NCBI GenBank assembly: GCA_029776065.1 | Contig: JARVJP010000009.1 | Span: 578,514 to 642,513 of the forward strand | Source of the DNA: Nitrososphaeria archaeon | GTDB lineage: Archaea > Thermoproteota > Nitrososphaeria > JACIWG01 | Reading direction: 5' to 3' | Length of the DNA stretch: 64,000 nucleotides | Shown here: positions 62,002-63,899 of the stretch, one piece after another | How the letters are laid out: every line of letters begins with the position of its first letter | How positions within the stretch are numbered: the first letter of the stretch is position 1 | The notes under the pieces: generated by a model | What the model was told of the DNA's origin: nothing | What the model saw: the letters and a program-made list of their open reading frames with translations, nothing else | Databases searched by the model: none | Position numbers and translations under genes: made by a program

Positions 62002-62131
62002 GACATCTTATGATATCATCGCAGATAAATATCTTAACTTTTTAGTAGAACCAATAATATTCGCAAACAAAAATAAAGAGCATCATCGCAACATCGTGCA
62101 ACGGTTTCTACGAGAAGAAACATTTAAGTAG

Positions 62132-62152
62132 TATTTATTTATTAAATAAATA
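62132..62152. promoter_or_regulatory. Perfect 21-bp palindrome before the RHH gene
   Basis: Arms TATTTATTTA and TAAATAAATA flank a central T, a perfect odd palindrome ending one base before ATG 62154. A TATA-like TTTAAGTA (62123-62130) places transcription start inside it. Probable operator for autoregulation by the RHH protein. Confidence 0.6.
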
Positions 62153-62153
62153 T

Positions 62154-62483
62154 ATGGGTACGCTAACAATTTCCCTTGACGATGATATAGAAAAAAGGCT
62201 TAGAGAACTTGTTAGACGAATGCATGGATCAAGAAAAGGTGGGTTATCAAAGGTTATCGAAAGTGCTTTGGAAAACTATTTCGCCTCAGTAAACAGGTCC
62301 ATCAACAGTGGTGAAATCTTCAAAGCACTAAAAGAGGACGAAGTGGTTGCAGAGGCTAACACATTGGATGAGTTAGCATCTATCCTTAGAAAGAAAAGAA
62401 TTGAGGTTAGAGGCTTAAGGATAGTTTCCTCAAGACCTATCAGACCAGTTGTCCACGGTGGGTATAGAATTAAGCGATCTTAG
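62154..62483 (+). CDS. Ribbon-helix-helix protein with C-terminal extension
   Basis: 109 residues. Residues 1-50 are a CopG/RHH domain: TLTISLDDDIEKRLREL, GGLSKVIESALENYF. The C-terminal 60 residues (VVAEANTLDELASILRKKR) resemble the short DUF5678 type. RHH domains bind palindromes such as the one at 62132. The protease gene follows. It could be an antitoxin-like or adaptor protein for it. Confidence 0.8.
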   Translation: MGTLTISLDDDIEKRLRELVRRMHGSRKGGLSKVIESALENYFASVNRSINSGEIFKALKEDEVVAEANTLDELASILRKKRIEVRGLRIVSSRPIRPVVHGGYRIKRS

Positions 62484-62505
62484 TCTAAGTTGGGTGCACT
62501 TTACT

Positions 62506-62907
62506 ATGGGTTCGTATTTTCTAGACGGTACACCGGTGTTGGAAATAGCGATCAGGAATCCGTTTCTGAACAAGACCTTCCCAGCTGAAGGTAAAGTTGT
62601 TGCCATAATAGACACAGGGTTTGAAGGCTTCCTACTTGTTCCCAAAGATGTATTTGAAAAACTTTCTTTGGATCAACTTTCAGTGGATAAGAGAAGGCTC
62701 ATTCTTGCTGATGGCCAGTATACCCAGTCTATCGGGACATATGGCGAAGTGGTCATCCCAAATTTTAATGTGAAATTTGACGGCTTTATTGAGACCATAA
62801 GGGGGGTTGAAGAAATAGTTATAGGGACAGGTTTGATGGAAAACTTGAAGCTCATTTTAGACTATTGTACAAGAAGAATAGAAATAGAAGCTTGTAAAAA
62901 ACCTTAG
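62506..62907 (+). CDS. Retropepsin-like aspartyl protease homologue
   Basis: 133 residues. Active-site segment AIIDTGFEGFLLVP (D-T-G) and the late VIGTGLMENLKLILD, the second conserved pattern of clan AA single-domain proteases, which work as dimers. ATG 62506 begins just before the domain (GSYFLDG) and lies 22 bases after the RHH stop; TTG 62449 would add 19 residues and overlap it. Confidence 0.8.
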   Translation: MGSYFLDGTPVLEIAIRNPFLNKTFPAEGKVVAIIDTGFEGFLLVPKDVFEKLSLDQLSVDKRRLILADGQYTQSIGTYGEVVIPNFNVKFDGFIETIRGVEEIVIGTGLMENLKLILDYCTRRIEIEACKKP

Positions 62908-62980: not shown

Positions 62981-63083
62981 CCATAACAAATGAAAGCCCT
63001 GATCTAAACCGTCATTCTTAAATATAATGGTACAAAATAATGGGCATAAGTCTAACTCATTGAACTTTATCACACCCAAATTT

Positions 63084-63588
63084 ATGGAAGTGTTGGATCT
63101 CTTCTTAGAAGAGCCGATGCAAGAATTTCATGAGAGAGGTTGTTAGAAAGGCAGGGGTAAGTAAGGGAGCGGTAAACAAGATTTTGAGAATTCTAGCTGA
63201 TATTAGCATGCTTGAAAGAGAGGAGAAAGGTAGAATGGTGTTCTATAAGCTCAATTGGGATGATCCAGTAGTACGACAGTTCAAGGTCTTAAGGAGTGTC
63301 TATTCTTTAAAAGGTCTGGTAAACGAATTAAAGAACAATTCGAAAAAGATCATACTCTTTGGAAGCTGTGCTCAAGGATCTAACGTGAAATCTAGTGACA
63401 TAGACCTTTTCATACTGACGAGTGAAAAGGATCAAGTTAGAAAGAAGATAAATATGTTTAACAAGAAAGCAGAGAAAAATATAGCACCTATAGTTGTCAA
63501 CAGCAACGAACTTGTTAAGCTTAAACATGAAGACAAAGCACTTTACTACAATATTGATAGAGGAATAGTTCTATGGCAGGCAGAATAA
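63084..63588 (+). pseudogene. Frameshifted HTH-MNT gene (pair 3)
   Basis: The conserved HTH of this family is split between two frames: the upstream frame encodes EVLDLFLEEPMQEFH and stops at TAG 63144, the second frame continues with REVVRKAGVSKGAVNK and then IILFGSCAQGSNVKSSDID (intact MNT motif) to the stop 63586. Two bases are missing, or one is extra, at about 63130-63135. A start ATG at 63130 would make a 152-residue protein without helix 1. The upstream frame is open from ATG 63027. An MNT of pair A type, with the HTH in the same place. Confidence 0.75.
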
Positions 63589-63899
63589 GTCCGAAAATCC
63601 AAAAGGCTACTAGCTGAAAGGAAGCTTATACGTGCTAAGGTAAGCAAGGAGACGATATCAAAAGAAATTTTAGCAGCAAAGGATTCAGAGAGAAGAGCCA
63701 CTACGCACTACTTTCAGCTATCAGGGAACTGTTCAAGAACGAGTTAGAGATCTCTCTAATTGAGAGCTTCGAAGAAGCCATGAACCTGAGGCAGGAAGCA
63801 GACTACGGTTTAAAGTACTCAGGAGAAGGAGCACAGGACACAATTGAAGGCGCCGAGAAATTTCTAAAAAGAATAAGTGAAATATTCATTATGGAATAA
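63573..63899 (+). pseudogene. Broken HEPN gene (pair 3)
   Basis: Begins MAGRISPKIQ, overlapping the MNT end by 16 bases, then shifts frame at AAAA (63601-63604) to RLLAERKLIRAKVSKE and EILAAKDSE. It then jumps at about 63684-63692 to EKSHYALLSAIRELFKN and ends with MNLRQEADYGLKYS and AEKFLKRIS at TAA 63897. The missing middle is the helix that usually carries the AYYSMFHA-like segment. So it has a frameshift and an internal deletion. Bases 63900-64000 hold nothing I can identify. Confidence 0.72.

Follow-up and report, generated by a model that had tools for sequence, protein, structure and literature searches.

A conserved archaeal gene pair of an RHH protein with a DUF5678-like tail and a retropepsin-like protease

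In the window (the whole stretch of DNA that was analysed, 64,000 nt), a gene encoding an RHH-like protein with a DUF5678-like tail is followed by the gene of a single-domain retropepsin-like aspartic protease, and the two constitute a real conserved two-gene unit (Table 1). The tail, and not the RHH part, was found to be the feature that tracks the protease, the RHH domain being one of several bodies that precede it. The module suggests controlled proteolysis, and the pair is read here, with a probability of about 0.4, as a laterally moving, toxin-antitoxin-like proteolysis module of two genes, in which the RHH protein would repress its own operon and the tail would bind and restrain the protease until the RHH protein is lost or released.

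Table 1. Features of the RHH-protease module, in window coordinates.
Feature	Position	Strand	Basis or remark
Whole module	62122..62903	+	Block shared with a genome of the same family at 79% nucleotide identity (blastn and tblastn against L052, L254)
TATA-like box TTTAAGTA	62123..62130	+	Sequence inspection; transcript probably leaderless
Palindrome TATTTATTTATTAAATAAATA, A/T, perfect, 21 bp, candidate operator	62132..62152	.	Not kept in relatives
Gene 1, 109-aa RHH protein with DUF5678-like tail	62154..62483	+	ORF
RHH DNA-binding domain, residues 1-51 (helices 10-24 and 30-51)	62154..62306	+	Weak Pfam RHH_1/RHH_6; AF2 fused chain
DUF5678-like beta-beta-alpha-beta domain, residues 55-92	62316..62429	+	hhalign; AF2
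Basic C-terminus, predicted disordered, residues 93-109	62430..62480	+	AF2, alignment
[RH]-x-G-x-R motif, residues 101-105	62454-62468	+	Alignment of 17 sequences
Gene 2, 133-aa single-domain retropepsin-like aspartic protease	62506..62907	+	TIGR03698, AF2, Foldseek
Active-site D-T-G, residues 36-38	62611..62619	+	Invariant in 17 relatives

Conservation and lateral movement of the pair

When 84,980 genomes, one for each species, were scanned with the protease alignment, 17 archaeal relatives of the protease were obtained, 37-78% identical over nearly the whole query and distributed among Brockarchaeota, Geothermarchaeota, Archaeoglobales, Nitrososphaerales, Jordarchaeia, Thermoprotei and Thermofilaceae. 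The RHH-tail gene lies directly upstream of the protease gene in all 17, being frameshifted in one of them (L054). Searching from the other side, a full-length RHH-tail profile gave seven matches in 398 genomes of the phylum, six of them adjoining a protease (one with a split gene), and further strong matches in close relatives were paired with a protease in 4/4 cases (G400, G422, G418, G417); some genomes recur between the protease-side and RHH-side sets, and these counts are not independent. The RHH gene precedes the protease gene, the spacing ranges from a 20-nt overlap to a 28-nt gap, with a 4-nt overlap as the commonest arrangement, and pairwise identity in one gene correlates with that in the other (r 0.76). 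Measured against L052, the RHH gene has a dN/dS of 0.22 and the protease gene one of 0.14; thus, both genes are under purifying selection and in use. The sequence-only reading had depended on co-occurrence of the two genes and had likened their layout to that of a toxin-antitoxin operon; rare pairing was not seen, and two small co-oriented genes conserved as a pair were indeed found.

Some deviations from this arrangement were also observed. One genome of the phylum carries an orphan RHH-tail protein with no protease beside it (L093, G111). In another (L023, L054, L094) a frameshift separates the RHH part from the tail while the protease is intact, which could be genuine decay or a fault in the assembly. 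Tailless RHH proteins with a comparable N-terminus precede PIN toxins instead (L038, L041).

Nucleotide homology with L052 and L254 extends over 62122-62903, from the TATA box to the end of the protease gene, and no flanking synteny was detected by blastn or tblastn in about 5 kb on either side of the module. The distribution is patchy, strong matches to the RHH protein being present in only two of the five genomes of the archaeal family. Since for both genes the nearest relative of the Ferroglobus pair (L055) is the Jordarchaeia pair (L060) and vice versa, transfer across phyla appears to have occurred. These comparisons indicate that the pair moves laterally as a unit. No carriage of the archaeal pair by a virus or plasmid was found.

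Promoter and predicted products of the two genes

The perfect palindrome TATTTATTTATTAAATAAATA claimed in the sequence-only reading is exact. It consists of 10-nt arms around a 1-nt centre and ends one base short of the start codon. An arm of 10 nt arose in just 0.15-0.25% of dinucleotide shuffles of the promoter region, so a chance origin is unlikely, and a scan of the whole window revealed no second palindrome of this kind. Because it lies between the TATA-like box TTTAAGTA and the ATG, the palindrome would, by archaeal promoter layout, span the expected start of a leaderless transcript. It is absent from the promoters of the 17 relatives, among which a comparable inverted repeat was found in L062 and, marginally, in L066, at other positions, and for this lack of conservation it is retained as a candidate operator only. 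TTTAAATA or another AT-rich box of this sort occurs in most of the 17 promoters, 15-35 nt ahead of the start.

The product of gene 1 scored 16.7 bits against Pfam RHH_1, under the cut-off of 20.5; RHH_6 was matched by seven of eight family members (best 3.9e-06), and both RHH helices are predicted in an AF2 monomer model of a fused chain. Its N-terminus is thus RHH-like, judging from weak Pfam scores of its own, better ones in relatives and the predicted helices. Direct Pfam assignment of the tail to DUF5678 was discarded, the cut-off not being reached: no PF18929 match was obtained in the eight family members at E up to 1, nor in G000. Profile comparison by hhalign aligned the tail with the PF18929 domain set of the same phylum at E 1.2e-6 (probability 91%), whereas RHH halves run against the same domains as controls reached 0.013 and 0.00096, the second not far off the score of the tail. 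Since this control comes fairly near, the tail is regarded as a probable rather than a proven homologue of DUF5678. Over this domain the fused-chain model reached a pLDDT of about 87-97. In the basic end that follows, the glycine of the [RH]-x-G-x-R motif is invariant and its last arginine nearly so in 17 sequences, and alignment and model together make this motif the most likely point of contact or cleavage.

Gene 2 encodes 133 aa when read from the ATG at 62506 and 152 aa when its open frame is taken from the TTG at 62449. Its product passed the NCBIfam model TIGR03698 (clan AA, D-T-G-F) with 76.1 bits against a cut-off of 57.35 over model positions 2-107, and Pfam aspartyl protease models matched only weakly. 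An AF2 model built from 17 sequences had a pLDDT of 93.5, and Foldseek matched it in the PDB to the RVP domain of Ddi1 and to retroviral proteases with probability 1.00, albeit with a best E of only 1.6e-3; modelling thus supports a retropepsin fold. The models are of single chains; a family A2-type protease with one D-T-G per chain would be expected to dimerise to complete its active site. The RHH_6, hhalign and TIGR03698 results agree with the two product assignments of the sequence-only reading, an RHH protein with a DUF5678-like tail and a single-domain D-T-G protease.

All 17 proteases of the window type have a cysteine near residue 121, and most have another near the C-terminus (residues 121-133); a disulphide or a metal site is possible.

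Tails and bodies upstream of related proteases

The gene upstream of 130 TIGR03698-like proteases of the phylum was inspected. In 35 of these loci the protease domain lies within 60 nt of the end of a DUF5678-like gene, and DUF5678-like matches were confined to this position; the tail models were partly built from the same 130 loci, and it is the positional specificity that counts, not the absolute number. Most TIGR03698-like proteases of the phylum sample are devoid of a tail partner. Starting from the other gene, a D[ST]G protease was found by inspection directly downstream in 19 of 30 PF18929 loci, a strict motif count giving 8/30 with a pattern that was too narrow. Two of the PF18929 loci with a downstream protease have a winged-helix-like body (L135, L136).

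The bodies that precede the tail are diverse. Besides the RHH type of the window, a second RHH type occurs in other Thermoproteota, and in Sulfolobales the tail follows CARF proteins (Cas_APE2256 and the SSO1393-like winged helix); RAMP Cas proteins with a similar end were also detected upstream of such proteases. Tandem tail repeats exist (L025, L154, L165), and stand-alone DUF5678 proteins of 57-80 aa are common beside the protease. In Sulfolobaceae, all eight tailed CARF proteins adjoin a protease and the tailless CARF of G441 gave no protease match; the set includes two broken frames, that of the CARF protein in G256 and, through a stop, that of the protease in G440. The tail sequence is included in the solved SSO1393-like protein 3QYF and is lacking in the related 7PQ2 chain. 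The sequence-only reading, centred on the pairing of an RHH protein with a protease, therefore described a conserved unit and was nevertheless too narrow, as the tail tracks the protease across several bodies.

Two further arrangements were noted among these loci. The TIGR03698 proteases of Sulfolobales overlap the 3' ends of CARF (Cas_APE2256) or RAMP genes (L003, L006, L008, L013, L014, L016, L150, L188), and the products of these CARF and RAMP genes end in a DUF5678-like extension, of which no mention was found, although the protease itself is listed by PADLOC. In Sulfolobaceae G088 (L131, L147), a D-S-G protease-like gene follows two DUF5678 genes in tandem.

About 18 of 19 distant bacterial relatives are likewise preceded by a protein of 80-130 residues with a comparable end. 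The profile of these upstream proteins matched DUF5678 at 3e-6, and their partner proteases are also members of TIGR03698. The bacterial pairs reside on conjugative or mobilizable plasmids; on Nostocales plasmids a 4-nt overlap was found in all four pairs opened, one of them in a BREX-1 cluster and one beside ParDE. On the Nostoc sp. MS1 plasmid (L250, 11696-12333), the pair lies in the BREX-1 cluster between pglZ and pglX, on the opposite strand.

Profile comparisons between the sets of tails gave E 1.6e-4 for the window set against the crenarchaeal RHH set and 2.5e-12 for the CARF set against the tandem set, and direct comparisons of the window tail were weak (0.079 against the CARF set, 0.13 against the bacterial set). 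By profile, the window tail thus appears linked to the CARF and bacterial tails only via intermediates, and the homology is uneven. A wider reading can be offered tentatively, as somewhat less probable than not, namely that the DUF5678-like tail serves generally as an exchangeable domain for docking the protease, that a tailed protein with an adjoining retropepsin-like gene is a protease-coupled sensor, and that the window pair is the regulator version of one modular archaeal-bacterial proteolytic system. This would extend to RHH and winged-helix regulators, to the ring-nuclease-like CARF proteins and the RAMP proteins that belong to type III CRISPR systems, and to small bacterial proteins encoded on plasmids in the vicinity of BREX and toxin-antitoxin genes.

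Possible modes of action and relation to known systems

RHH and retropepsin proteins both belong to obligate-dimer families. In the mechanism preferred here, an RHH dimer of the gene 1 product would bind the promoter and hold the operon down, its DUF5678-like C-terminal domain would bind the product of gene 2, and the protease would dimerise to build its active site. Within the intact complex the tail would keep the protease inactive or confined, and the complex would repress its own promoter; upon loss or release of the RHH protein under stress or infection, the protease would become active and cut cellular or invader proteins. Autoregulation, physical binding, inhibition, trigger and targets are all parts that we infer. 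Physical binding through the tail would be the simplest reading, the upstream domain being retained wherever the protease is, and a 2:2 complex of the two dimers would come naturally, since the RHH dimer would offer a pair of tails to a protease of twofold symmetry. What favours inhibition and autorepression is the resemblance to toxin-antitoxin units in gene order, mobility, overlap, neighbourhood and the VapB-like RHH domain.

Several observations weigh against inhibition. The strongest are the many proteases of this family that have no tail partner, which imply that such a protease does not always need an inhibitor, and the CARF and RAMP bodies, which imply that the partner need not be a repressor. 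To these are added the split RHH gene beside an intact protease in L023/L054, the orphan L093 and the unconserved palindrome. Modelling of the complex, proposed in the sequence-only reading, also gave no confident docking: the fused chain, an artificial frame-shifted reading in which TAGT is read as Ser, folded in both halves with a disordered joint and yielded no confident contact between them (pTM 0.53).

With type II toxin-antitoxin systems that have an RHH antitoxin (VapBC, ParDE), the module shares gene order, a short overlap or gap, mobility and neighbourhood, as well as an RHH-like N-terminus with a partner-specific C-terminus and a candidate operator at the promoter. As in those systems, two small co-oriented genes form a conserved pair with the gene in the antitoxin position first. 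The difference lies in gene 2, which encodes an aspartic protease and not a known toxin fold; no recognised toxin family was found for it, its PADLOC matches being proteases only.

Cleavage of the RHH protein by the protease offers another, rather unlikely, explanation. In such an ImmA-ImmR-like switch, the RHH protein would repress the operon, and perhaps other genes, until cut by the active protease, probably in its conserved C-terminus, predicted to be disordered. Xre/COG2856 pairs have the same layout of a DNA-binding protein beside a small protease, and repressor cleavage has been discussed for them (PMC2701414); the parts are unrelated, however, ImmR-ImmA combining an Xre HTH protein with a COG2856 HEXXH Zn-protease and the window pair an RHH protein with a D-T-G aspartic protease. 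Retention of [RH]-x-G-x-R in the RHH end predicted to be disordered is what would be expected of a recognised peptide, but a retained binding motif is equally compatible with inhibition. Moreover, CARF and RAMP Cas proteins bear the same tail, as do small bacterial proteins in which no DNA-binding part is apparent; cleavage of a repressor can therefore not be how the module works in general.

The diversity of bodies fused to the tail, with the protease as the constant element, and the tandem tail repeats would both suit a targeting adaptor, in which the tail brings the protease to the site of the body (a DNA operator, a cyclic-oligoadenylate sensor or a Cas complex) and the substrates are other proteins present there; with an RHH body, the effect would be to remove proteins from DNA. 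On the other hand, stand-alone DUF5678 proteins without a targeting body are common beside the protease, and no substrate candidate is evident, and this role is considered unlikely. Ordinary co-transcription, with an RHH repressor setting the level of a housekeeping retropepsin-like protease without physical contact, would agree with the common autoregulation of RHH proteins and with the many TIGR03698 proteases that stand alone, but is highly improbable, because it is the tail and not the DNA-binding domain that follows the protease through unrelated upstream proteins, which calls for a link at the protein level, and because the distribution is patchy, unlike that of housekeeping genes.

The claim of the sequence-only reading that no such system has been described held as far as checked, although the protease family itself is known. 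By the curated cut-off, the protease is a member of TIGR03698 (AF_0612 family; COG5550-type single-domain clan AA peptidases), a family whose description includes no partner and, as far as found, no linkage to RHH or DUF5678-like domains. It also matches by sequence, at 1.5e-05, the PADLOC model PEPT_D ('Aspartyl protease, in the type III operon in Sulfolobales'), and the Sulfolobales relatives identified in this analysis overlap CARF (Cas_APE2256/SSO1393-like) and RAMP genes with a similar tail at their ends. In the window, by contrast, the protease is paired with an RHH protein in a unit of two genes that stands among HEPN/MNT and AbiE-type pairs, and no cas gene was present among the neighbours checked from 55.8 to 64.0 kb (HEPN/MNT, AbiE-type, DHH-like and others). 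To our knowledge, retropepsin-like enzymes are widespread in prokaryotes, with a role known for only a few. Among the single-domain ones, RimB and RloA of Pseudomonas work with operon partners, ATP-grasp and other proteins, in ribosome modification or osmotic stress (PMC11957791, PMC12239564), and unlike the window pair they have no RHH or DUF5678 partner. In the open-access literature searched, no publication was found on the function of DUF5678 or on a pair of RHH and retropepsin-like proteins. As far as checked, then, the protease family and its CRISPR-linked form in Sulfolobales are already known, and the RHH-retropepsin module is apparently undescribed.

A tail that tracks proteases through unrelated upstream proteins predicts protease binders in hundreds of genomes. 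If the tail does control the protease, archaea would have aspartic proteolysis among their switches for stress and defence, and the dealings of the Sulfolobales type III CRISPR protease with its ring-nuclease-like protein, whose solved form 3QYF includes the tail, would be explained.

The surroundings of the module were taken, in the sequence-only reading, to be full of HEPN/MNT and AbiE pairs. Pfam confirmed the HEPN/MNT pairs and an AbiEii gene, the AbiEi-like partner of the latter being weak. Just downstream (63056-63899), genes of HTH-MNT and HEPN-like type look decayed: ahead of 63130 the N-terminal HTH continues in a different frame, and the HEPN-like part is divided between two frames, while the adjoining RHH-protease pair is intact.
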